A stretch of 64,000 nucleotides of DNA from Keratinibaculum paraultunense (lineage in GTDB: Bacteria; Bacillota; Clostridia; Tissierellales; Tepidimicrobiaceae): the NCBI RefSeq assembly GCF_016767175.1, contig NZ_CP068564.1, positions 558,001 to 622,000 of the forward strand, in the 5' to 3' direction. Position 1 is the stretch's first letter, and each line of letters begins with the position of its first letter. The position numbers and the translations under genes were made by a program. Positions 3,961 through 46,154 of the stretch are shown here, in pieces. The notes under the pieces were generated by a model. The model did not search any database and had not been told where the DNA came from. It saw only the letters and a list, made by a program, of their open reading frames with translations.

Positions 3961-4082
3961 GACATATACTCCTTTTTATAGTATTATATTTAAATATAGT
4001 TATTATAAATCGAAATGTATACATTTATATGATATCATATTAGGTGCAATATTGTATATATTTTTTTGGAGAGGGTGGTTAA

Positions 4083-4916
4083 ATGTATATTGGATGCCAT
4101 TTAAGTATTGCAAAGGGATATGAAAATGCAGCAAAAGTAGCTTTGGATATAGGTGCTAATGTTTTTCAATTTTTTAGTAGGAATCCAAGGGGTTCATCTT
4201 CAAAAGATTTAGATATAGAAGATGTAGATAATATGAATAAAATACTAGAAAAGAATAATTTTGGTCCATTATTGGCTCATGCCCCTTATATTATAAATTT
4301 AGCTTCCTACAAGCCTAATATATACGGAATGGCAAAGGGAATAATGAAAGAGGATTATCAAAGGTTAAATGAATTGTCTATCCCTTATTTTACTTTTCAT
4401 CCAGGAAATCACGTGGGGAAAGGAACGGAATATGGGATTGAAAGGATTGCTGAAGCTTTAAATGAAATAATTACAGGTGAGGAAACTACTATGTTATTAC
4501 TTGAAACTATGGCTGGACAAGGGACAGAGATAGGGAAGACTTTTGAAGAACTTAAAGCTATCATGGACAGAGTAGAGCATAGTGAATTAATAGGAGTTTG
4601 TTTTGACACTTGCCATACTCATGCTGCAGGATATGATATAGTAAATGATTTAGATGGAGTTTTGGAGGAATTTGATAGGATTATAGGTATTGATAAATTA
4701 AAGGCTATACATTTAAATGATAATAAAATGGAATTTGGTAGTCAAAAAGATAGGCATGCTAAAATAGGAGAGGGAACCATTGGATTAGAAGCTATAAAAA
4801 ACATAATAAAGCATCCTATATTAAGAGATATTCCATTTTATCTGGAAACTCCTAATGAACTAGAAGGTTATAGAAAAGAAATAGAATTGTTAAAAGAATT
4901 AGTTACCATAAATTAG
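4083..4916 (+). CDS. nfo: Deoxyribonuclease IV (AP endonuclease, Nfo)
   Basis: Zinc-dependent endonuclease that nicks DNA at abasic sites in base excision repair. Visible family landmarks are HLSIAKG near the N-terminus, LLAHAPYIINLAS, FHPGNH, LLLETMAGQG, GVCFDTCHTHAAGYD, IHLNDNK and the closing FYLETPNE, which supply the metal-binding His, Glu and Asp residues. Length of 277 residues is normal. Start ATG at 4083 follows GGAGAGGG. Its last 14 bases overlap the end of the convergent PP-loop gene. Confidence 0.93.
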   Translation: MYIGCHLSIAKGYENAAKVALDIGANVFQFFSRNPRGSSSKDLDIEDVDNMNKILEKNNFGPLLAHAPYIINLASYKPNIYGMAKGIMKEDYQRLNELSIPYFTFHPGNHVGKGTEYGIERIAEALNEIITGEETTMLLLETMAGQGTEIGKTFEELKAIMDRVEHSELIGVCFDTCHTHAAGYDIVNDLDGVLEEFDRIIGIDKLKAIHLNDNKMEFGSQKDRHAKIGEGTIGLEAIKNIIKHPILRDIPFYLETPNELEGYRKEIELLKELVTIN

Positions 4917-19308: not shown

Positions 19309-19490
19309 GATGACAAATACGGGAGAGACCATTTACATACATGGCGCCGAAGGAATAAGCTGTATAATATCTGCCGATATACAGCGATGATCTCAGGCAA
19401 AAGGACCGTATTTTGACGAAACTCTGAAAAGCTTTAAGCACCGAAGGAGCAATCCATTCAATTTAGATGGGGAAACTCTCAGGTTTTAAA
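19309..19490 (+). promoter_or_regulatory. Tandem glycine riboswitch
   Basis: Aptamer 1 runs about 19312-19414, with AAATACGG near 19315 closing against CCGTATTT near 19406, and contains GGGAGAGACC, GGCGCCGAAGGAATAAGC and a CTCAGGCAAAAGGACC block. Aptamer 2 runs about 19415-19488 with GAAACTCTGAAAAGC, GCACCGAAGGAGCAA and AAACTCTCAGGTTTT. These are the conserved gcvT-motif elements. It sits upstream of trxB/grd, consistent with glycine-controlled glycine reductase expression. Confidence 0.95.
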
Positions 19491-19534
19491 ACAGAGTAAG
19501 AAGGCACTTATGTGCTTCTTCTATTCTGTTTTTT
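19489..19534 (+). terminator. Terminator of the glycine riboswitch
   Basis: AACAGAGTAAGAAGGCAC pairs with GTGCTTCTTCTATTCTGTT (one bulge), ending at 19530 and followed by a T run. Its 5' edge AAAAC can compete with the closing GTTTT of aptamer 2, as expected of a transcriptional ON switch. Confidence 0.88.
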
Positions 19535-19540
19535 ATTATG

Positions 19541-19885
19541 TTTAAAAACTTAAATAATGAACAAATTAAACTTATTAGTTTTTAAATTAATGTTTATGGG
19601 TATCATATACTATGTCAATGATTAATAAAATATAAATTTGCATATTTTATTATAATAAGGTAAAGTATTATCAGTATTATTATGATAGAGTAAGTTTTAG
19701 AACAGTAGTCATAATATCTTGTCTAGAATAGAAGAAAATAATACATAATTGCATTCAAGAGGAAGGCTTATCGTTAAAAAAATGGATTCAAATTATTTAA
19801 TTATTTAAAAATTTAAAATATTACAAGCGTATTATGTTACAATTAAAATTAAGTATCAACATTATAAATATTGTAAAATATATCT
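19541..19885 (+). other. Long non-coding stretch between riboswitch and trxB
   Basis: About 350 very AT-rich bases without an open frame worth calling. No tRNA or known RNA motif was recognised. It may hold a second promoter for trxB, but no single -35/-10 pair stands out. Confidence 0.5.
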
Positions 19886-19900
19886 AAAGGAGTGAAAAAC

Positions 19901-20857
19901 ATGTCAGAAATTTATGATGTTATCATTGTAGGGCAAGGACCTGCGGGGTTAGCAGCAGGAATATATGCATCAAGAGATAGGCGTAAAACGTTAATGCTTG
20001 AAAAAGAAAAACCAGGTGGACAAATTGTAACAACAGCAGAGGTAGCTAATTATCCAGGTTCTATAGAAAATGCTACAGGACCAAGCTTAATAGCAAGAAT
20101 GGTGGATCAAGCAAAGAGTTTTGGAGCTGAAGGGAAAATAGACCCTATTGTAGATGTAGAATTAGAAGGTGAAATAAAAGTATTAAAGGGAGAAAAAGAT
20201 GAATATAAAGCAAAATCTATAGTTATTGCTACAGGTGCTAATCCAAGACAAATAGGTTGTCCAGGAGAAAAAGAATTAACAGGCAGGGGAGTTTCTTACT
20301 GTGCTACATGTGATGCTGCTTTCTTTGAGGACATGGAGGTTTATGTAGTAGGTGGAGGAGATACTGCAGTAGAAGAAGCTATATATTTGACTAAATTTGC
20401 TAGAAAGGTTACTATTATTCATAGAAGAGATGAATTAAGAGCTGCAAAGTCTATTCAAGAAAAAGCATTTAATAATGAAAAAATACATTTTATGTGGGAC
20501 TCAGTAGTAGAAGAGATAAAAGGTGATGGAATAGTTGAGTCAATGGTAGTTAAAAATGTTAAAACAGGTGAGTTAACAGAAATAGTTGCCGATGAAGAAG
20601 ATGGAACCTTTGGGATATTCGTGTTTATAGGGTTTATACCAGCTACTAAATTATTTGAAGGAAAAGTTGAAATGAAAGATGGATATATTGTAACAGATGA
20701 AGATATGAGAACTAATATCCCTGGAGTATTTGCTGCAGGAGATTGTAGAGTTAAATCTTTAAGGCAAGTTGTAACAGCTACTGCTGATGGAGCTATTGCA
20801 GCAGTTCAGGCTGGAAAATATATTGATGCTCTAGAAGGGACAGAATATGGAAAATAA
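19901..20857 (+). CDS. trxB: Thioredoxin reductase
   Basis: FAD/NADPH enzyme that reduces thioredoxin, here the electron source for glycine reductase. FAD-binding GQGPAGLAAGIYASR is at the N-terminus, the redox-active CATC is at residues 134-137, NADPH-binding VVGGGDTAVEEA follows, and the C-terminal FAD motif is GVFAAGDCR. 318 residues is normal. The frame opens at a GTG (19892), but AAAGGAG (19886-19892) fits ATG at 19901. It heads trxB-trxA-grdEABCD. Confidence 0.93.
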   Translation: MSEIYDVIIVGQGPAGLAAGIYASRDRRKTLMLEKEKPGGQIVTTAEVANYPGSIENATGPSLIARMVDQAKSFGAEGKIDPIVDVELEGEIKVLKGEKDEYKAKSIVIATGANPRQIGCPGEKELTGRGVSYCATCDAAFFEDMEVYVVGGGDTAVEEAIYLTKFARKVTIIHRRDELRAAKSIQEKAFNNEKIHFMWDSVVEEIKGDGIVESMVVKNVKTGELTEIVADEEDGTFGIFVFIGFIPATKLFEGKVEMKDGYIVTDEDMRTNIPGVFAAGDCRVKSLRQVVTATADGAIAAVQAGKYIDALEGTEYGK

Positions 20858-20896
20858 ATAAATAAATAAATAAAAAATATTTTAGGAGGGATAATT

Positions 20897-21217
20897 ATGA
20901 TAGAGTTAACAAAGGAAAATTTTGAAGAAGAAGTTTTAAAGGCAGAAGGACCAGTATTAGTAGATTATTGGGGACCAACTTGTGAACCATGTAAGGCATT
21001 GATGCCTCATGTGGAAAAGTTAGCAGAAAAATATGGAGACAAGGTGAAATTTTGTTCATTAGACATTACTAAGGCAAGAAGATTGGCAATAAAGCAAAAA
21101 GTAATGGGATTACCAGCTATTGTTATTTATAAAGATGGAGAAGAAGTAGAAAGATTAGCAGAATCTGAAGCTACACCAGCAGCTGTAGAAGAAATGGTTA
21201 AGAAGTATGCAAATTAG
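20897..21217 (+). CDS. trxA: Thioredoxin of the glycine reductase system
   Basis: Thioredoxin fold of 106 residues; passes electrons from TrxB to the selenoprotein complex. The active site reads WGPTCEPC (Cys29, Cys32), not the canonical WCGPC. Variant active sites are known from thioredoxins encoded in glycine reductase operons, and such proteins can be poor partners for other reductases. The cis-proline segment is GLPAIVIY. Start ATG at 20897 follows GGAGGG. A GC-poor hairpin separates it from grdE. Confidence 0.93.
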   Translation: MIELTKENFEEEVLKAEGPVLVDYWGPTCEPCKALMPHVEKLAEKYGDKVKFCSLDITKARRLAIKQKVMGLPAIVIYKDGEEVERLAESEATPAAVEEMVKKYAN

Positions 21218-21218
21218 T

Positions 21219-21249
21219 TTTTAATTCTGGGCTTTGCCCAGAATTAAAA
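21219..21249 (+). other. Intra-operon hairpin between trxA and grdE
   Basis: Perfect 14-bp stem TTTTAATTCTGGGC (21219-21232) with GCCCAGAATTAAAA (21236-21249), loop TTT. It is only weakly followed by T, so it is more likely an RNA-stability or attenuating element than a full terminator. Confidence 0.6.
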
Positions 21250-21281
21250 TAGATGTTTTTAGAACTAGAGGAGGTGAATTT

Positions 21282-22568
21282 ATGCGTCTTGAATTAGGCC
21301 ATGTGCTTATAAAAGATGTTCAATTTGGTAATGAAACTAAAGTTGACAATGGGGTGCTTTATGTAAATAAAGAAGAATTGATAGCCTTAATAAAGGAAGA
21401 TGAGCACCTTAAAGAAGTAGACGTAGAAATTGCAAAACCTGGTGAGAGTGTAAGAATTACTCCTGTTAAGGATGTAATTGAGCCAAGAGTTAAGGTTGAA
21501 GGACCAGGAGGTATTTTCCCAGGAGTATTATCTAAAGTTGATACTGTTGGTAGTGGGAAAACCAATGTATTAAAAGGATGTGCAGTTGTTACTACAGGTA
21601 AAATTGTAGGTTTCCAGGAAGGCATTATAGATATGACAGGACCTGGAGCAGAATATACTCCATTCTCAAAATTAAACAATATAGTTTTAATATGCGAACC
21701 ACAGGACAATTTGAAGCAACATGATCATGAGAAAGCTGTTAGATTTGCAGGACTTAAAGCAGCAGCTTACCTAGCAGAAGTTGCAAAGGAATTAACTCCT
21801 GATAAAGTAGAAGTATATGAAACTAAAACATTATTTGAAGGAGCAAAAGAGTATCCAGAGCTTCCAAGAGTAGCTTATGTTCAAATGCTTCAATCACAAG
21901 GTTTGCTTCATGATACCTATGTATATGGAGTAGATGCAAAACAAATAGTTCCAACTATATTGTATCCAACAGAAATAATGGATGGAGCTATTATAAGTGG
22001 AAATTGTGTATCTGCTTGTGATAAGAATACCACTTATCATCATCTAAACAATCCAGTTATAGAAGATCTATATAAAAAACATGGAAAAGAATTAAACTTT
22101 GTTGGGGTTATTATAACTAATGAAAATGTATATTTAGCAGACAAGGAAAGGTCTTCTAATTGGACAGCTAAACTAGCAGAATATCTAGATTTAGATGGAG
22201 TAATAATTTCACAAGAAGGGTTTGGTAATCCAGATACCGACCTTATAATGAACTGTAAGAAAATTGAACAAAAAGGCATAAAAACTGTTATTATAACTGA
22301 TGAGTATGCAGGACGAGATGGTGCTAGTCAATCATTAGCTGATGCTGATCCTCTTGCAGATGCAGTGGTAACAGCAGGAAATGCTAATGAAATTGTTGAA
22401 TTACCACCAATGGATAAAGTAATTGGACATATAGAGTTTGTAAATGTTATAGCAGGAGGCTTTGATGGAAGTTTGAAGGAAGATGGTTCCATAACAGTAG
22501 AACTTCAAGCTATAACAGGTGCGACTAATGAATTAGGATTTAATAAGATGTCTGCGAAAGGATATTAA
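21282..22568 (+). CDS. grdE: Glycine reductase protein B alpha/beta proprotein GrdE
   Basis: Substrate-specific component of glycine reductase. The proprotein self-cleaves to give a pyruvoyl-bearing subunit that binds glycine as a Schiff base. The cleavage site is Cys242 in ISGNCVSACDKN, which matches the position known for clostridial GrdE. 428 residues is full length. The open frame runs further upstream, but GAGGAGGTG just before ATG at 21282 (MRLELGHVLIKDV) fixes the start. Works with GrdB (selenoprotein) in protein B. Confidence 0.95.
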   Translation: MRLELGHVLIKDVQFGNETKVDNGVLYVNKEELIALIKEDEHLKEVDVEIAKPGESVRITPVKDVIEPRVKVEGPGGIFPGVLSKVDTVGSGKTNVLKGCAVVTTGKIVGFQEGIIDMTGPGAEYTPFSKLNNIVLICEPQDNLKQHDHEKAVRFAGLKAAAYLAEVAKELTPDKVEVYETKTLFEGAKEYPELPRVAYVQMLQSQGLLHDTYVYGVDAKQIVPTILYPTEIMDGAIISGNCVSACDKNTTYHHLNNPVIEDLYKKHGKELNFVGVIITNENVYLADKERSSNWTAKLAEYLDLDGVIISQEGFGNPDTDLIMNCKKIEQKGIKTVIITDEYAGRDGASQSLADADPLADAVVTAGNANEIVELPPMDKVIGHIEFVNVIAGGFDGSLKEDGSITVELQAITGATNELGFNKMSAKGY

Positions 22569-22627
22569 TATTTACATTTAGTAGAAATAAAAATAATTAA
22601 GAAAAACATAAGAAAGGATGTGTGGAT

Positions 22628-23107
22628 ATGTCAATATTTGATGAGAATAAAAAAGTTATAATTATTGGCGATAGAGATGGTATACCAGGACCAGCTATTG
22701 AAGAATGTGTAAAAACTACTGATGCAGAAGTAGTATTTTCATCAACTGAATGTTTCGTCTGAACTGCTGCAGGCGCTATGGACCTAGAGAACCAAAGAAG
22801 GGTTAAAGAATTAACAGAAAAATATGGTGCTGAAAATGTAATCGTTATAATAGGTGGAGCTGAACCTGAAGCAGCAGGATTAGCAGCTGAAACGGTTACA
22901 GCCGGAGACCCAACTTTTGCAGGTCCATTAGCAGGAGTCCAGTTAGGACTTAGAGTTTATCATGCAGTAGAACCAGAATTTAAAGAATCTGTAGATCCAG
23001 AAGTTTATGATGAACAAATAGGTATGATGGAAATGGTTTTAGATGTTGATGAAATTATAAACGAAGTAAAGAGTATAAGAGAAGAATATTGTAAATTTAA
23101 AGATTAA
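22628..23107 (+). CDS. grdA: Glycine reductase selenoprotein A (GrdA), UGA read as Sec
   Basis: Small selenoprotein that carries the carboxymethyl-selenoether between protein B and protein C. The gene is one frame through an internal TGA at 22760-22762, giving the hallmark [13 protein letters not shown] with Sec at residue 45; downstream sequence matches GrdA fully. ATG at 22628 follows AAAGGATG. 159 residues is normal. A caller treating TGA as stop would miss the N-terminus and start at 22778. No clean SECIS hairpin could be drawn by eye. Confidence 0.97.
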
Positions 23108-23138
23108 TTCCCTAGAAAAAAAGAGAGGGGGGAATCTA

Positions 23139-24449
23139 ATGGGGAAAATTAAAGTAGTCCATTATATTAACCAGTTTTTTGCCGGAATAGGTGGAGAAGA
23201 AAAAGCAGATTATAAACCAGAAATTAGAGAAGGCGTTGTTGGACCAGGAATGGCTTTAAATAAAGAATTTAATGGTGAAGCAGAAATAGTTGCTACCATT
23301 ATATGTGGTGATAGCTATTTTAATGAGAATGTAGAAGAGGCAAAAGCTGAAATTTTAAAAATGGTAAAAGAACAGGATCCAGATTTATTTATAGCAGGAC
23401 CAGCGTTTAATGCAGGTAGATATGGTGTTGCATGTGGAACAATTGCAGACGCAGTCCAAACTGAATTAGGTATTCCAGCTATAACTGGAATGTATGAAGA
23501 AAATCCTGGAGCAGATATGTACAAAAAAAGTGTATATATAGTATCTACTAAGAATTCTGCTGCAGGTATGAGAGATGCAGTTAAGAAAATGGCACCTTTA
23601 GCACTAAAAATTGCAAAAGGCGAAGAAATAGGATCCCCAGAGGAAGAAGGGTACATTCCAAGAGGAATTAGGAAAAATTACTTTACTGATAAAAGAGGTT
23701 CTGAAAGAGCAGTAGAAATGTTGCTTAAAAAATTAAAAGGTGAAGATTTTGTAACTGAATTTCCAATGCCAGATTTTGATAGAGTAGATCCACAACCAGC
23801 GATAAAGGATCTTTCAAAGGCTACAATAGCTTTAGTAACTTCTGGTGGAATTGTGCCTAAAGGAAATCCAGATCATATTGAATCTTCATCAGCATCTAAA
23901 TATGGGAAATATGATATAGAAGGTTTTGATGATTTGACAAGTGAAGATCATGAAACTGCTCATGGCGGATATGATCCAGTATATGCTAACGAAGATCCTG
24001 ATAGAGTATTGCCAGTTGATGTGTTAAGAGAAATGGAAAAAGAAGGTAAAATCGGCAAACTTCACAGATATTTTTACACTACTGTAGGTAATGGAACATC
24101 AGTTGCTAATGCTAAAAAATTTGCAGAAGAAATTGGTAAAGAATTAGTGGCTGATGGTGTAGATGCAGTTATATTAACTTCAACCTGAGGTACTTGTACA
24201 CGTTGCGGTGCAACGATGGTAAAAGAAATTGAAAGAGCAGGAATTCCTGTAGTTCACATGTGTACAGTAGTACCAATTTCACTTACAGTAGGTGCAAATA
24301 GAATAGTGCCAACAATTGCTATTCCTCATCCATTAGGAAATCCAAACCTAGATCCTGAAGAGGAAAAAGCTTTAAGAAGAAAGTTAGTTGAAAAAGCATT
24401 AGTTGCTTTAACAACTGATGTAGAAGAACAAACTGTATTTGAAGATTAA
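23139..24449 (+). CDS. grdB: Glycine reductase selenoprotein GrdB (protein B gamma), UGA read as Sec
   Basis: Selenoprotein subunit of protein B that attacks the Schiff-based glycine. One continuous frame of 436 residues runs through TGA at 24186-24188, with Sec350 in the motif TSTUGTCTRCG, which is the GrdB active site. The C-terminal 86 residues after Sec (VPTIAIPHPLGNPNLDPEEE) are conserved and end at 24449. Start ATG at 23139 follows GAGAGGGGGG. A SECIS-like hairpin lies 12 bases after the UGA. Confidence 0.97.
24201..24215 (+). promoter_or_regulatory. SECIS-like hairpin in grdB
   Basis: CGTTGC (24201-24206) pairs with GCAACG (24210-24215) around a GGT loop, 12 bases downstream of the recoded UGA. 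Stem-loop position and loop GU fit bacterial SECIS elements bound by SelB. Confidence 0.7.
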
Positions 24450-24457
24450 TTTTAAAA

Positions 24458-24491
24458 CTTTAAATGGGTGATTTTTATCACCCATTTAAAG
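24458..24491 (+). other. Intra-operon hairpin between grdB and grdC
   Basis: Perfect 15-bp stem CTTTAAATGGGTGAT (24458-24472) with ATCACCCATTTAAAG (24477-24491), loop TTTT, with no T run behind it. Probably protects or partly attenuates the transcript. Confidence 0.65.
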
Positions 24492-24530
24492 ATTATAAAA
24501 ATATTACATAAAATTCATGGAGGTGGAATT

Positions 24531-26075
24531 ATGAGTTATCCTGTAGTAAAAGGTGCTAGTTATATATTAGTGCATGCTAAAGATATGGTTATCAATAATG
24601 GAACTACTCAAACGACTGAAAGAATATTAAATCCAGATTCTGAGTATTTAAAAAAGTTACCAAACCATTTACGTGACTTTGAAGAAGTTATAAATTATAT
24701 GCCTAATCAAGTTTATATAGGTAATATGACACCAGAAGAATTAGGAGAACATCCACAACCTTGGTATAATAAACCATTAGAAGATGCGTCTAGATTTGGA
24801 AAATATGGAGAGATTATGCCAGAGGATGAGTTTATTGGATTGATGAAAATAGTAGATACTTTTGATTTAGTTAAATTGACCAAAGAATTTACAGAAAAAG
24901 TTAAGGCTAAGTTAGAATCTCATCCTATAATGAAAGATAGAGATGATTTAATATCTAGACTTAAAACTGGAGAAGATTTAACAGATATTGAAAAGTTAGT
25001 AAAAGAACAAGGGGCAGAAGGCATATATTTTGATGGAGAAATGGTTGGCTGTGTAAAAAGAGCACATGATGTAGATGAAAATTTAAAAGCTCATGTATTA
25101 TTTGAAAACATTGCATGTAAGGCATCAGGTGTTTTAGCTGGTTTGAATCTAATAGCTAAAAACAATATAAATCCTGACGATGTAGAATATATAATAGAAT
25201 GTTCAGAAGAAGCATGTGGAGATATGAACCAAAGAGGGGGAGGTAATTTTGCCAAATCAATTGCTGAAATGGTTGGATTTAAAAATACCACAGGTTCAGA
25301 TACAAGAGGTTTTTGTGCAGCTCCAACTCATGCTTTAATTATAGCTTCTTCATTAGTGCAGGCAGGAACATTTAAAAATGTGGTAGTTATTTCTGGTGGT
25401 TCAACAGCAAAGTTAGGCATGAATGGGAAAAACCATGTAGAAAATGACATGCCAATATTAGAAGATGTAATTGGAGGATTTGCAGTACTAGTAAGTGAGA
25501 ATGATGGTGTAAATCCAGTATTGAGGACTGATTTAGTTGGAAGGCATACAGTTGGGACTGGTTCATCACCACAAGCTGTAATGACTTCTTTAGTTACTGC
25601 TCCTTTAGAAAAAGGTAATTTAAAAATTACTGATGTTGATAAATATTCAGTAGAAATGCAAAATCCTGATATTACAAAACCAGCGGGCGCAGGAGATGTG
25701 CCAAATGCAAATTATAAGATGATAGGTGCTTTAGGAGTAATGAGAAAAGATCTAGAAAGGTCTCAAATGCTAGATTTCATTAAAAAACATGGAATGGTAG
25801 GTTGGGCACCAACACAAGGGCATATTCCATCTGGAGTACCTTATCTAGGATTTGCTAGAGAAGACATATTAGAAGGTAGAATAAACAATGCAATGATAAT
25901 AGGCAAAGGAAGTTTATTCTTAGGAAGAATGACTAATTTATTTGATGGTGTTTCCATTATAGTGGAGAAAAACTCAGGAAAAACAGAAGAAGAGAAAGTT
26001 ATATCAGAAGAAGAAATTAAAGCACTTATAGCTGAAGCCATGAGAGATTTTGCATCTCATCTACTTCAGGATTAG
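24531..26075 (+). CDS. grdC: Glycine reductase component C beta subunit GrdC
   Basis: Thiolase-like subunit of protein C, which turns the carboxymethyl-selenoether into acetyl-phosphate with GrdD. The N-terminus MSYPVVKGASYILVHAKDM and the block GNMTPEELGEHPQPWYNKP are typical. ECSEEACGDMNQRGGGNFAK holds a likely active cysteine in the ketosynthase-like fold. 514 residues is full length. The frame extends upstream to 24468, across the preceding hairpin, but GGAGGTGG fixes ATG at 24531. Confidence 0.95.
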   Translation: MSYPVVKGASYILVHAKDMVINNGTTQTTERILNPDSEYLKKLPNHLRDFEEVINYMPNQVYIGNMTPEELGEHPQPWYNKPLEDASRFGKYGEIMPEDEFIGLMKIVDTFDLVKLTKEFTEKVKAKLESHPIMKDRDDLISRLKTGEDLTDIEKLVKEQGAEGIYFDGEMVGCVKRAHDVDENLKAHVLFENIACKASGVLAGLNLIAKNNINPDDVEYIIECSEEACGDMNQRGGGNFAKSIAEMVGFKNTTGSDTRGFCAAPTHALIIASSLVQAGTFKNVVVISGGSTAKLGMNGKNHVENDMPILEDVIGGFAVLVSENDGVNPVLRTDLVGRHTVGTGSSPQAVMTSLVTAPLEKGNLKITDVDKYSVEMQNPDITKPAGAGDVPNANYKMIGALGVMRKDLERSQMLDFIKKHGMVGWAPTQGHIPSGVPYLGFAREDILEGRINNAMIIGKGSLFLGRMTNLFDGVSIIVEKNSGKTEEEKVISEEEIKALIAEAMRDFASHLLQD

Positions 26076-26088
26076 AGGTGATATAAAA

Positions 26089-27270
26089 ATGGTAGAAAAT
26101 AATGTTAAAAAGATGATTGGAAAGGTTTTTAATAATATAGCAGATGCTATAGAAACGGGTCAATTTGGTGAAAGAATAAGAGTGGGTTTAACTACTTTAG
26201 GATCAGAACATGGAGTAGAAAATTTAGTAAAAGGTGCAGAACTTGCTCAAAAGAGGGATCCTTCTATTGAAGTAGTATTAATTGGACCTAAATATGATAC
26301 AGAACTAACACAAGTAATAGTTGAAACAGAAGAAGATGGGCACAAAAAAATGGAAGAATTATTAGATAGTGGAGAAATAGATGCTTGTGTTACAATGCAT
26401 TATAGTTTCCCTATTGGGGTTTCCACAGTAGGAAGAGTTATAACACCAGGAAAAGGTAAGGAAATGATAATTGCCACAACAACTGGTACTTCATCTCCTC
26501 ATAGAGTTGAAGCTATGGTTATAAACGGTATAAGTGGAATAATAACTGCAAAAGCTATTGGGATAGAAAATCCTACAGTAGGAATATTAAATGTAGACGG
26601 AGCTAGACAGGTTGAACGAGTGTTTAATGAGTTGAATGATAATGGTTATGAAATTAATTTTGCTGAGTCTGTTAGAGCAGATGGTGGAAGCATTATGAGA
26701 GGAAATGACCTGTTAGCAGGAGTACCAGATGTGATGGTTACAGATACATTAACAGGAAATATATTAATTAAGGTATTTTCTTCATATACTACTGGAGGAA
26801 GTTATGAGTCGTTGGGATATGCTTATGGACCAGGAATTGGTGAAGATTATAATAGATTGATTTTAATATTATCTAGAGCTTCTGGAACTCCTGTAGTTGC
26901 TAACGCAATTAGCTATGGTGCAGATTTAGTTAGAGGCAATGTTAAGGCTATAGCCAAATCGGAATTTGAAAAAGCAAATAAAGCTGGTATTAAGGAGATA
27001 TTAAAAGGACTTACAAAGGATACAAAAAAATCAGAAGAAGATGAAGAAGTGGAAGCTCCACCAGCTGAAACAGTTACTGGTACAATTTCGGGTATAGATA
27101 TAATGGAATTAGAAGATGCTGTTAAAACATTGTGGAAAGAAGGCATTTATGCTGAATCAGGAATGGGATGTACTGGTCCTATTGTGATGGTTAATGAAGA
27201 AAAGCTAGATAAAGCTATAGAAATATTATCTAAAGCAGGATATGTATCTAAAGGTTCTGATCCTTGTTAA
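26089..27270 (+). CDS. grdD: Glycine reductase component C alpha subunit GrdD
   Basis: PlsX/phosphate-acyltransferase-like subunit of protein C that releases acetyl-phosphate from the acetyl-enzyme by phosphate attack. Visible: RIRVGLTTLGSEHGVENLVKGAE near the N-terminus, VTDTLTGNILIKVFSSYTTG in the middle, and a C-terminal segment ending in SGMGCTGPIVMVNEEKLDKA with Cys. 393 residues. ATG at 26089 follows AGAGGTGAT, 13 bases after grdC. Last gene of the operon, followed by a terminator. Confidence 0.95.
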   Translation: MVENNVKKMIGKVFNNIADAIETGQFGERIRVGLTTLGSEHGVENLVKGAELAQKRDPSIEVVLIGPKYDTELTQVIVETEEDGHKKMEELLDSGEIDACVTMHYSFPIGVSTVGRVITPGKGKEMIIATTTGTSSPHRVEAMVINGISGIITAKAIGIENPTVGILNVDGARQVERVFNELNDNGYEINFAESVRADGGSIMRGNDLLAGVPDVMVTDTLTGNILIKVFSSYTTGGSYESLGYAYGPGIGEDYNRLILILSRASGTPVVANAISYGADLVRGNVKAIAKSEFEKANKAGIKEILKGLTKDTKKSEEDEEVEAPPAETVTGTISGIDIMELEDAVKTLWKEGIYAESGMGCTGPIVMVNEEKLDKAIEILSKAGYVSKGSDPC

Positions 27271-41780: not shown

Positions 41781-43081
41781 TCATATTTCTTTAGTTTCTA
41801 TTATTGTATCTGGATCGTCTTCAATTTTGGCTACTGTTATACCAGGTATACTTAATAAAATGACAGCAATTGGCATTAGATAGTTGAAAAATGCCCATTT
41901 CCCATATTGAAAAGTAGAAACTCCTAATATTCCTGTCATAAACACACCACATGTATTCCAACTTCCTGGCACTACAATGGAAATATATTGTTCTGGCATG
42001 GTCATATTGCTGAAAATACAAGTAAATACTGTCATGGTTATTAGTCCAGTAACACTCTTTATTTTTCTTAAAAGGACTTCTACTATAACTTCTAATTGTC
42101 CTGTTTTTTCCATGATACCACCAAACATCATGGCTATTATAGTTAAAGAGATAGAGTACATCATATTATTCAAACCACCTGCAGTTAACAATTCATCTAT
42201 TATCGTTATTCCTGTATTCCTGTATTACTAACAAAACCGCTATAACTAGCACTTAAAATTTGACCGAAATTTGCACCTTGAAATATAAAAGCTTCAATGA
42301 TTCCTAGTATTATCCCAATAGTTATTCCAGGTATAGCAGGAACTTTAAATGCAATTGAGATAATTACTGCTAAAGGTGGAAGTAGTAATAATGGCGAAAT
42401 ATTAAATGCTGAAGCTAAACCTTCTTGTATTGTAACAATAGAAGACATATTTGCAGATGAACCTACATACTTAAAACCTAAGAATAAATATAATATTGCA
42501 CATATAATATAAACTATTAAGGTACTCTTGAGCATAAACTTAATATGTGTAAATACATCAGTACCTGAAACTGCAGGTGCTAAATTAGTTGTATCAGATA
42601 ATGGAGATAATTTATCCCCAAAATAAGCCCCAGAAATAATGGCTCCAGCTGCAATAGGTGCAGGTATTCCTAGTCCTGAGGCAATGCCCATTAATGCAAG
42701 CCCCATGGTGCCAGCTGTTCCCCAGCTGGTTCCTGTTGCAATGGAAGTAATAGAACATATAATCAATGTAGCTACTAGAAATATTTGAGGTTTTAGTATA
42801 TGTAATCCATAATAAATCATACTGGGAACTACTCCTGCTAACAGCCAAACACCAATTAAAAGACCTATAATTGCAAGGATAACTACTGCTTGTAATGCTT
42901 GATAAATACCGTCAAACATGCTTTTTTCAATTTCATTCCAACTATATCCTATTTTTAGAGCAATAAGAGCAGCAAACATTGTTCCTATTAACATTGGAAT
43001 ATGAGGATCTGCTTTAAATTTTGCAATACTTATTGCCATTATAAAAATAAGAAAACCAAATGATAAAAGCGATTCATACAA
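41781..43081 (-). pseudogene. NhaC-type Na+/H+ antiporter, broken gene
   Basis: The two halves together resemble an NhaC antiporter. The N-terminal part (43081-42206) reads through HIPMLIGTMFAALIALKIGYSW and DKLSPLSDTTNLAPAVSGTD. It ends early because ATTCCTGT is duplicated in tandem (42208-42215 and 42216-42223), shifting the frame by 8 bases. Removing one copy restores SNTG-ITIIDELLTAGGLNNMM into the C-terminal part (42191-41781). That part also lacks about 35 residues normally found between MPEQYISIVVPG and WNTCGVFMTG (near 41964). No Shine-Dalgarno precedes the first half, so the 5' end may be decayed too. Confidence 0.88.
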
Positions 43082-43250: not shown

Positions 43251-43649
43251 ATTAGTGAGTTTAAAGATATAAGGTGGAGACAAAGATTCACCAACTTTGA
43301 GAAATCATATAAATCTTTAAGTAAATATATTGATAAATCTATTGAGACAGAGTTGGAACGAGCAGGTATTATCCAATTATTTGAAATCTCATTTGAGCTC
43401 TCATGGAAACTCATGAAAGGTTATCTAGAATTCCAACAATTAATTGTGAAAAGTCTAAGGGAAGCAATTAAACAGGCTTATCAGATAGAATTAATTGATC
43501 ATGGGCATACTTGGATTGATGCTTTAGCAGACAGAAACTTAACAGTCCATACTTATGATGAGGACTTAGTGAAAAAATGGTTGAAGATATTTCCACTATT
43601 TACTATCCACAACTTAAGAAATTATATGAAAAATTGGTTAAGGAACTAA
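43251..43649 (+). pseudogene. HepT-like toxin / nucleotidyltransferase-partner gene, damaged
   Basis: Frame reads S-E-F-K-DIRWRQRFTNFEKSY onward and matches the HepT/HI0074 family, including the RX4HXY motif (RNLTVHTY). The expected ATG is ATT (43251-43253) right after GGAGGGGG. Near the end, a six-A run (GTGAAAAAATGG) seems to have lost one A; with seven, the frame would continue as VEDISTIYYPQLKKLYEKL, a normal HepT tail overlapping the next gene. As it stands the C-terminus is scrambled and ends at 43649. ATT initiation is possible but unlikely. Confidence 0.75.
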
Positions 43650-43652
43650 AAA

Positions 43653-43901
43653 ATGTATGGATTATTAGAAAGAGACTTTAAATTTATATTAAAAGCTATT
43701 AATGGGTATCCAGAAATAGAAGAAGTTATTATTTTTGAAAGTAGGGCAATGGAGAATTATAAAAAAGGTCTTGGTATCGACCTAGCCCTTAAAGGAGAAA
43801 AATTTAAACATCATTCATATAGACAGTGTGGGAAAAATAATTTGGGAAAAGTAAGCCTCTTTGAGAGGATTTTAAATTGTAATAAACTCATAGGTAATTA
43901 G
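43653..43901 (+). pseudogene. MNT-domain nucleotidyltransferase antitoxin, decayed
   Basis: Partner of the HepT-like gene. The frame begins MYGLLERDFKFILKAINGYPEIEEV, typical of MNT antitoxins. The catalytic GSRAxG...GSDID motif has become ESRAMENYKKGLGID: the first Gly is Glu and the first catalytic Asp is Gly. The second half is scrambled (82 residues in place of about 100 or more). MNT proteins normally AMPylate HepT; this one is predicted to be inactive. Confidence 0.75.
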
Positions 43902-44281: not shown

Positions 44282-44773
44282 ATGAAAATTGTTTATGATA
44301 CATATGATTCACCAATAGGACTGATTCATGTAGTAGTAGATGAAATTGGGGTTAAAAAAGTATCTCTTTTTAAAGAGGATTGGGAAGATTATTTAACAGA
44401 AAATGCAGATATTAAATTAGATAAACAAACTTGCAAAGATGTTGTTATTCAATTAGATGAATACTTTAATAAAAAGAGAAAAAATTTTCAACTACCCTTA
44501 TCTATTGAAGGTACAGAATTTAGAATTAAGGTTTGGAATGCATTAGGAGAGATACCTTATGGTGAGGTTAGAAGCTACTTACAAATAGCAGAAGCAATAG
44601 GAAATCCTAAAGCTGTAAGAGCAGTAGGACAAGCAAATAAAGCCAATCAATTACCAATAATTATCCCTTGCCATAGAGTAATAGGTAAAAATGGAGATTT
44701 AGTAGGTTTTGCTGGAGATAAAATAAATGTGAAAAGATTTCTACTTGAGTTAGAAGGGGCAATAAAAATATAA
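44282..44773 (+). CDS. ogt: Methylated-DNA-protein-cysteine methyltransferase
   Basis: Suicide DNA-repair protein removing O6-alkyl groups from guanine. The active site is IIIPCHRVIGKNGDLVGFAG, with the helix-turn-helix FRIKVWNALGEIPYGEVRSY before it. 163 residues. The frame opens at 44240, but AAGAGGATG suits ATG at 44282 (MKIVYDTYDSPIG). Located just outside the decayed block. Confidence 0.93.
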   Translation: MKIVYDTYDSPIGLIHVVVDEIGVKKVSLFKEDWEDYLTENADIKLDKQTCKDVVIQLDEYFNKKRKNFQLPLSIEGTEFRIKVWNALGEIPYGEVRSYLQIAEAIGNPKAVRAVGQANKANQLPIIIPCHRVIGKNGDLVGFAGDKINVKRFLLELEGAIKI

Positions 44774-44857
44774 GTTATGTTAAATGTAGAATTATTATTT
44801 AACTAAAATATCATATATGGTATACTAAAGTAAATAATATTGAAAGGGGAAATTTAA

Positions 44858-45115
44858 GTGGATAAGATAATTGTTTTTGGTAGCAAGCATTGACCAGATT
44901 GTGAACCAGTGAAAGAGTATCTTTCAAAAAATAATGTAAAATTTGCATACTTAGATATTACTGAAAACATGTTTAATTTAAAGAAATTTTTAAAATATAG
45001 AGACAATAGGAAAGAATTTGATGAAATAAAAAAAGCGGGAAGAGTAGGTCTTCCATGTATAGTTGTAAATGATGGAGAACAGATTATTTTTGACTACAAA
45101 GATTTAAAGATATAA
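44858..45115 (+). CDS. Glutaredoxin-like selenoprotein (UPDC active site), UGA read as Sec
   Basis: An 85-residue protein read from GTG 44858 through an in-frame TGA at 44891-44893. It begins M-DKIIVFGSKH-U-PDCEPVKEYL, so Sec12 replaces the first Cys of a CPDC glutaredoxin-type motif. The rest is a clean thioredoxin-fold sequence with RVGLPCIVVNDG (cis-Pro). AAGGGGA lies 8 bases before GTG. A 7-bp SECIS-like hairpin starts 16 bases after the UGA. Non-Sec relatives with CPDC occur in clostridia. If TGA were a stop, the frame would have no sensible start. Probable role: thiol/selenol redox chemistry; substrate unknown. Confidence 0.88.
44910..44926 (+). promoter_or_regulatory. SECIS-like hairpin in the glutaredoxin-like selenoprotein
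   Basis: TGAAAGA (44910-44916) pairs with TCTTTCA (44920-44926) around a GTA loop, 16 bases after the recoded UGA. Distance and GU in the loop match bacterial SECIS elements. Confidence 0.65.
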
Positions 45116-45126
45116 ACAAATCTAAT

Positions 45127-45155
45127 TTGGATGAAAAATATTTATATGCTATAAT
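45127..45155 (+). promoter_or_regulatory. Promoter for the TPP riboswitch leader
   Basis: TTGGAT at 45127-45132, 17-base spacer and a perfect TATAAT at 45150-45155, about 25 bases before the riboswitch. Confidence 0.65.
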
Positions 45156-45180
45156 GAAGTTGTACAATTAAAAAATAAGG

Positions 45181-45271
45181 AATGGGAGCTTAGTTAAACT
45201 TTGCTGAGAGGAACTGTGGTGTCAGTTCGACCATTTGACCTGATTTGGGTAATGCCAACGTAGGGATCATT
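45181..45271 (+). promoter_or_regulatory. TPP riboswitch (THI element)
   Basis: AATG (45181-45184) pairs with CATT (45268-45271) as P1. Inside are GCTGAGAGG (THI-box core), a TTCGACCATTTGACCTGAT block and GGGTAATGCCAACGTAGGGA, all conserved in thiamine pyrophosphate riboswitches. It precedes thiM. Confidence 0.96.
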
Positions 45272-45285
45272 TAATATTATTATTG

Positions 45286-45312
45286 AGACTTGCAATGGCA
45301 GGTCTTATTTTA
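45286..45312 (+). terminator. TPP riboswitch terminator
   Basis: AGACTTGC (45286-45293) pairs with GCAGGTCT (45298-45305; one G-T pair), followed by TATTTTATTTTA. Likely the off-state terminator. Confidence 0.8.
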
Positions 45313-45329
45313 TTTTAGGAGGGATATAA

Positions 45330-46154
45330 GTGTATAGCCAATTATTTAAAAATGTACATAAAAAAACACCAATAGTACATTGTATTACTAACTATGTCAC
45401 AGTAAATGATGTAGCCAATATCATTCTTGCATCAGGTGCTTCTCCTATAATGGCAGATGATATTGAAGAGGTTTCTGATATTACTTCTATTAGCAATTCA
45501 TTGGTATTAAATATAGGAACATTAAATACTAGAACTATAGAGTCTATGATACAAGCTGGTAAAACATCAAATGAATTAAATCATCCTGTAGTTTTAGATC
45601 CTGTGGGAGTAGGAGCTTCCAGGCTTAGAATGGAGGCTACTTTAAGATTGTTAGAGGAAGTTAATTTTTCTGTAATAAAGGGTAATGCTTCGGAAATTAA
45701 GGCAATACTCAATAAAACGAAAACTTCAGGTGGAGTTGATGTAAGTTTAGAAGATATAATAAATGATAGAAATATAGATGAATACATACAAGTAGCAAAA
45801 GAAGTTAGTAAAGCCAATGATGCAGTAGTAGCAATCACTGGACCTATAGATATAGTTACCAATAAAGATAAAACTTACATTATTAGAAATGGGCATAAAA
45901 ACATGGGGAAAATAACAGGAACAGGTTGTATGTTAGCAGGGATAATAGGTGGATTTATAGGTGCTAATCCAGAAAATATATTAGATAGCACAGCAGTAGC
46001 TATTGCAGCAATGGGATTGTGTGGAGAATTAGCAAATGGAAAAGTTGTGAAAGAAGGTTTAGGTAATGGTTCTTTAAGAACTTACTTAATTGATTATATG
46101 AGTAATTTAGATGAAACTACATTAATGGGAGGTATTAAGATTGAAAATAGATAG
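45330..46154 (+). CDS. thiM: Hydroxyethylthiazole kinase
   Basis: Phosphorylates the thiazole moiety in thiamine salvage. Ribokinase-like fold with PIVHCITNYVTVNDVANIILASGASPIMADD, PVVLDPVGVGAS and the anion-hole motif GTGCMLAG. 274 residues. GTG start at 45330 follows AGGAGGG. First gene of the TPP-controlled operon; overlaps thiE by 14 bases. Confidence 0.95.
   Translation: MYSQLFKNVHKKTPIVHCITNYVTVNDVANIILASGASPIMADDIEEVSDITSISNSLVLNIGTLNTRTIESMIQAGKTSNELNHPVVLDPVGVGASRLRMEATLRLLEEVNFSVIKGNASEIKAILNKTKTSGGVDVSLEDIINDRNIDEYIQVAKEVSKANDAVVAITGPIDIVTNKDKTYIIRNGHKNMGKITGTGCMLAGIIGGFIGANPENILDSTAVAIAAMGLCGELANGKVVKEGLGNGSLRTYLIDYMSNLDETTLMGGIKIENR

Follow-up and report, generated by a model that had tools for sequence, protein, structure and literature searches.

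A glutaredoxin-like gene of Keratinibaculum paraultunense with an in-frame UGA probably encodes a selenoprotein oxidoreductase

The gene at positions 44858–45115 of the 64,000-nucleotide stretch of Keratinibaculum paraultunense DNA analyzed here (hereafter, the window) encodes, with a probability of roughly 0.9 as judged from sequence comparison, a genuine selenoprotein acting as a thiol/selenol oxidoreductase. A preliminary description of this DNA had called it a likely true selenoprotein, and this view was strengthened by a column in which relatives carry only selenocysteine (Sec, U) or cysteine, by a retained and covarying hairpin after the UGA, and by the presence of the Sec machinery genes in the genome. 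The locus is thus a well-supported selenoprotein gene that is cut short by the standard code.

Gene, reading frame, and flanking signals

Direct reading of the sequence bore out the coordinates, frame, UGA position, and stop that had been claimed for this gene: the in-frame TGA is codon 12, and the frame contains no further stop. The features of the locus are listed below, where rows are the distinct aligned family sequences described in the next section, grouped by the codon in the UGA column.

44799–44826, + strand: candidate sigma-70-like promoter, TTAACT-16 nt-TATACT, with TG before the second hexamer, from a consensus scan
44842–44849, + strand: Shine-Dalgarno-like GAAAGGGG, 8 nt before the GTG, identified by eye
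44858–45115, + strand: predicted selenoprotein gene, glutaredoxin-like, 85 residues, GTG start and TAA stop, with a PF00462 match
44891–44893, + strand: UGA codon 12, predicted to be read as selenocysteine, opening U-P-D-C; the column is U or C in 89 of 89 rows
44900–44902, + strand: Cys15 codon, second active-site Cys; Cys in 54/54 UGA rows and 32/35 Cys rows
44910–44916 paired with 44920–44926, loop GUA at 44917–44919, + strand: candidate bSECIS hairpin, 7 pairs
45056–45058, + strand: Cys67 codon, directly after the conserved Pro66 (GLPC); Cys in 41/54 UGA rows and 15/35 Cys rows

With U at codon 12, the N-terminus reads VDKIIVFGSKH-U-PDC, and the UPDC motif (residues 12–15) follows strand 4–8 of the structure model. 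Under the standard code, the frame is open only from GTG 44909 and gives 68 amino acids, a product that has lost both its active site and the first strand. The expected truncation by standard gene calling was therefore found, but the lost part is 17 of 85 residues, a fifth of the protein and not its first third. The ribosome binding site that had been proposed upstream was recognized by eye in the Shine-Dalgarno-like element listed above. Sigma-70-like sites numbered 8 on both strands of 44700–45350 compared with 3.5 in shuffled sequences, which makes the scan weak evidence for a promoter. A terminator scan of the + strand from the gene stop to the downstream riboswitch returned none.

The Sec/Cys column, the hairpin, and the Sec machinery

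We searched 249 genomes of the same order with the window protein, taking E ≤ 1e-6 as a match, and 148 of them (own genome counted) contained one. A profile search of 398 genomes across the phylum gave 18 matches at E ≤ 1e-9, again with the own genome counted, while scans of named genome contigs and of a plasmid collection yielded 9 loci and 9 records, respectively; the best 4 of the 9 plasmid-collection records were all Cys forms. The rows that were read correspond to fetched loci, namely those from 65 of the 148 matching order genomes plus loci from the phylum, named-contig, and plasmid searches. These 65 genomes, picked by rank and variety, took in 39 of the 41 UGA-form genomes and 26 of the 107 others. 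The Cys paralogue L002 was excluded, and identical rows were counted once.

Among the resulting 89 distinct aligned family rows, the UGA column held UGA in 54, Cys in 35, and any other residue in none, in line with the Cys that the preliminary description expected at this position; the search query carried C at this column, which could slightly disfavor other residues there. Cys15 was kept in every UGA row, and Cys67 was replaced in 12 UGA rows and uncovered in one. The closest named relatives were two Tissierellia metagenome-assembled genomes (98% and 85% identical for L033 and L034, respectively), [Clostridium] ultunense DSM 10521, and Clostridium sp. Cult1 (both 85% identical; L035 and L036). 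[C.] ultunense is now Schnuerera ultunensis (Tissierellales, Tepidimicrobiaceae). The same UGA was present in a same-genus genome. The codons before the UGA were compared with those of 27 relatives (the 29 order loci L004–L032 less L006 and L026). These 243 codon comparisons yielded 94 synonymous differences as against 28 non-synonymous ones, and 107 of the 134 base differences lay at third positions; the excess of synonymous differences indicates that the stretch before the UGA evolves as coding sequence.

Several individual loci deserve mention in their own right. In the same-genus genome G206, contig 10 bears the UGA gene twice, with about 17 kb between the copies (L004 and L078); their identity to the gene described here is 98% and 81%, respectively, and the window's genome shows one copy. 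One UGA form (L040, match 4001–4231) has U-G-G-C replacing U-P-x-C. Another (L067, from genome G620) was printed with an additional TAG, and its aligned frame ends near residue 78, so that either the protein is shorter or the copy is broken.

The preliminary description had reported a 7-bp hairpin with GU in its loop 16 bases after the UGA. We located it as UGAAAGA-GUA-UCUUUCA, beginning 16 nt after the UGA. Folded alone, the window hairpin gave z = -1.17, and 29 of 200 shuffles were at least as stable; it is not significant by itself, so that the case rests on comparison with relatives, and it is this comparison that indicates more than chance. Only 1.1% of 20,000 synonymous recodings retained all six inner pairs. 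These pairs were all present in 46 of the 54 UGA rows, with five in 3 rows and two or three in 5 rows, whereas no Cys row had all six (0/31) and two had five (2/31). Measured against synonymous recodings, local folding had a mean z of -3.43 for UGA rows and -0.06 for Cys rows, and recodings with as many pairs made up on average 11% and 75%, respectively. The loop was GUA or GUU in 47 of the 54 UGA rows.

Across 53 UGA rows, 93.7% of 318 cells paired, compensatory change was seen in 8 cells, with 3 of the 6 pairs altered on both sides, and none of 500 shuffles attained the observed covariation score. Slid registers were lower in cells paired (at most 73.0%), in both-sided changes, and in covariation; by number of pair types, though, 71 of 500 shuffles did as well and two slid registers scored higher. 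The third positions of codons 19–22 were unchanged in 22 of 22 UGA relatives, and those of codons 16, 17, and 23–25 differed in 6 to 15 of the 22 (9, 8, 8, 15, and 12, respectively); a few other codons, among them 15, 29, and 36, likewise vary little. When corrected for kinship, 4 independent Sec/Cys pairs remained on supported branches; an average of 1.6 of these had the hairpin together with Sec, at a median p of 0.5, four contrasts being too few for power. No SECIS model of Rfam matched the window's hairpin, and the sole row obtained, STnc210 with an E value of 7, corresponds to chance. The hairpin is kept and covarying in UGA forms and mostly absent from Cys forms, which speaks for it; folding energy alone and the Rfam SECIS models do not. 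Judged on aligned sequences, the hairpin across the relatives looks as a bacterial SECIS inside coding sequence should.

Three UGA forms (L096, L116, and L091) lack the usual hairpin register; in two of them, L096 and L116, a different hairpin can be seen by eye. Set beside their close Cys relatives L089 and L088, they show a UGA/Cys difference inside one family and possibly reflect a separate gain of Sec.

The host genome consists of one contig of 2,307,997 bases, in which selD, selA, selB, and tRNA-Sec (anticodon UCA) are clustered at 793000–802000. The selA, selB, and tRNA-Sec genes exceeded their cut-offs, and selD, which carries its own in-frame UGA, was recognized by eye from the frame adjoining selA. 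The window itself contains grdA and grdB, which both carry an in-frame UGA, together with trxA and trxB, consistent with the earlier claim that this host makes GrdA and GrdB and has Sec available. These genes lie at 19310–27270, where a glycine riboswitch is followed by trxB, trxA, and the glycine reductase genes including grdA and grdB, and Rfam SECIS_4 was matched at 24189–24226, within grdB.

In the order, to which these counts are confined, all 41 genomes that have a UGA form, defined as one TGA inside the match (its position is unseen for G072 and G221), also carried selA, compared with 41 of the 107 with other forms only. The Fisher p value of ~1e-13 for selA against form is only a guide since related genomes are not independent, and selA also occurred in 81 of the 101 order genomes without any match to the window protein. 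Among the 107, the matches of two genomes (G053 and G171) were too weak to print, and six others (G034, G035, G036, G042, G062, and G083) had one TAA or TAG inside the match. In the four of these six that were fetched, the frame was open as far as aligned, and the TAA/TAG codons look like gene ends inside the match.

Fold, family placement, and proposed chemistry

The claim of a thioredoxin-fold, glutaredoxin-like protein was upheld by Pfam, where PF00462 (Glutaredoxin) matched residues 4–72 with an E value of 1.6e-10 and 41.5 bits against a cut-off of 22.9 (U was passed to the program as C), and by the structure searches, where the first Foldseek row of the AlphaFold model was cGrx1 (7c10; E 3.1e-3). 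Structure comparison gave a best Z of 9.1 to human SH3BGRL and a Z of 8.7 over 69 residues to cGrx1. The model had a middling mean pLDDT of 76.9, and Foldseek returned no row at E ≤ 0.001, so the model only corroborates the fold.

The window protein passed no NCBIfam cut-off. Its best match was the YruB family (TIGR02196; 45 bits against a curated cut-off of 88.55), and the YruB model matched all 19 members of alignment A1, none beating the window's E value of 1.1e-11. A second PF00462 protein of the same genome, a Cys form, reached 84.2 bits with TIGR02196, just under the cut-off. The UXX-star families NF041114, NF041211, NF041212, and NF047338 are likewise glutaredoxin-like with Sec first in the motif, but the window protein, with its UxxC motif, scored 27.4, 13.7, 26, and 12.1 bits against their cut-offs of 72, 100, 66, and 97, respectively. 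Both UGA and Cys forms share a subfamily mark, K42-x-F44-L45-x-x-R48-D49, with few changes. Two proteins named 'Glutaredoxin domain-containing protein', from Fusobacterium animalis (WP_008691664.1) and Treponema saccharophilum (WP_002704484.1), match the family profile but have Cys at the Sec column. COG4545, which we take to be a possible name for the family, was set aside as a label, its literature mention concerning gut microbiota in radiation proctitis.

The nearest described counterpart is cGrx1 of Clostridium (Alkaliphilus) oremlandii, likewise a small protein of an anaerobe, which shares the glutaredoxin fold and a UPxC motif with Sec first (E 1.1e-5). According to the accessible part of its description (PMC7642778), cGrx1 is a native Sec protein with solved structures and a proposed reductant of MsrA. 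It aligns with the window protein by sequence at residues 3–46 only, and the window family differs in its conserved K-x-F-L-x-x-R-D and in the Cys that follows the conserved proline in most UGA rows. PrpU of E. acidaminophilum was considered as a relative and dropped, given its CxxU motif in the available text of PMC4056300.

Glutaredoxins with Sec had been counted in bacterial genomes by 2006, the consulted part of PMC1794560 giving two in Alkaliphilus metalliredigenes and one each in Moorella thermoacetica and Geobacter sulfurreducens, and Table 1 of a review, in the portion available (PMC13188914), lists a UxxC Sec glutaredoxin as experimentally verified. The window protein resembles these listed proteins in its above-cut-off PF00462 match and its UxxC motif. 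Sec glutaredoxins are thus already known, and the window protein is an expected addition to them, in a branch unnamed by the family models tested; no known biology is overturned. The literature on the subfamily, its hosts, and Sec glutaredoxins, as far as the accessible parts of papers reach, held no description of the subfamily, most subscription papers lying outside the search. The [C.] ultunense genome paper (PMC5924567), in the part consulted, predicts Sec only for components of glycine/betaine reductase, and the [C.] ultunense ortholog (L035; NZ_AZSU01000005.1, match 4001–4243) has a UGA absent from the Sec list in that part.

In the mechanism we propose, SelB and Sec-tRNA would bind the mRNA hairpin just past the UGA, and the ribosome would insert selenocysteine at codon 12 to give an 85-residue glutaredoxin-fold selenoprotein. 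The Sec12 selenol would then attack a client disulfide, or a related oxidized thiol or selenol, and Cys15 would resolve the mixed bond into an internal Se-S bridge, as expected of a dithiol-type oxidoreductase. Resetting would fall to a cellular reductant, probably the thioredoxin system or otherwise some unknown small thiol. The thioredoxin system is favored over glutathione since two thioredoxin reductase genes exceeded the cut-off in the genome, with trxB and a thioredoxin gene within the window, and the glutamate-cysteine ligase families PF04262 and PF04107 had no match in the genome. A cGrx1-type protein would be expected to partner a Sec-containing MsrA of its own cell; the genome contains one MsrA-type gene (genome positions 652685–653137), with no stop within the match. 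GrdA, this MsrA, and peroxiredoxins would be the leading candidate clients. A bolder proposal is that the clade around the window protein constitutes a selenoredoxin type of its own, with an active site holding three chalcogens (Sec12, Cys15, and Cys67), in which a Sec12-Cys67 bridge or a three-ligand site would provide a relay absent from ordinary glutaredoxins, in amino-acid-fermenting anaerobes not making glutathione; we consider this unlikely.

Termination at the UGA, which would leave either a nonsense-mutated pseudogene or a product made only from GTG 44909, is very improbable. UGA also ends ordinary genes in this host (one of ten genes checked), and the standard code leaves only the 68-residue frame open; against this, such a product would miss the first strand and the active site, the window's frame has no other stop, 54 distinct rows share a UGA in this column with coding kept on both sides, and UGA forms in the order were found only in selA-bearing genomes. 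The chance that the UGA encodes another residue through a general code change, or is a sequencing error, appears negligible, as nothing but the in-frame UGA itself speaks for either; against them stand the presence of selA, selB, selD, and the UCA tRNA-Sec, the gene that ends in UGA, and the recurrence of the same UGA in the same-genus genome.

A true selenoprotein might instead use Sec12, Cys15, and Cys67 mainly to bind or pass on metal or selenium species and not to reduce disulfides, which we regard as highly unlikely. UxxC in a glutaredoxin fold is the classical redox arrangement, and Cys15 is invariant in the UGA rows, whereas Cys67, the third possible Se/S ligand suggested by the sequences of most UGA forms (41/54), is replaced in 12. 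The neighborhood offers some encouragement for such a role, with a hemerythrin-like protein upstream in L010, L025, and L038 (by eye; L025 equals L038 in sequence) and a Dps-type protein near the F. animalis Cys form (by eye), but these neighbors are not common to the family. In addition, the available portion of PMC13188914 regards Sec as a possible metal ligand in SaoB, SaoC, and UXX-star proteins. Disulfide or related thiol/selenol redox chemistry remains our preferred reading.

Sec/Cys switching and gene neighborhood

The best tree, built from 83 columns and 88 rows with 39 of its 85 inner branches open, required 12 Sec/Cys changes, at least 4 of which were forced by supported branches. 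The family switches repeatedly between Sec and Cys, with the hairpin common in the Sec state and rare in the Cys state, and so lends itself to comparisons of what a redoxin gains from selenium.

The gene is preceded by one for O6-methylguanine-DNA methyltransferase and followed by a TPP riboswitch and hydroxyethylthiazole kinase. We clustered 844 frames of at least 80 codons around the gene in its relatives and named the printed clusters by eye. Recurring neighbors were a downstream CBS/DHH-like protein (8 loci) and a hemerythrin-like protein (3 loci), the rest being tied to small groups, and the largest cluster (17 loci) was a mix of ABC ATPases at scattered places. Since neighbors change between lineages, the gene probably works on its own, and we propose no operon partner for it from which its function might be read.

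Two further observations concern the DNA upstream of the gene. A Na+/H+ antiporter (PF03553) on the - strand at 41784–43081 is split into two frames, 42209–43081 and 41784–42191, as if frameshifted. On the + strand, the stretch 43353–43901 holds a PF08780 nucleotidyltransferase substrate-binding-like frame, matched from model position 28, and after it a short frame without a Pfam match; by eye the two resemble a decayed HI0074/MNT-type pair.
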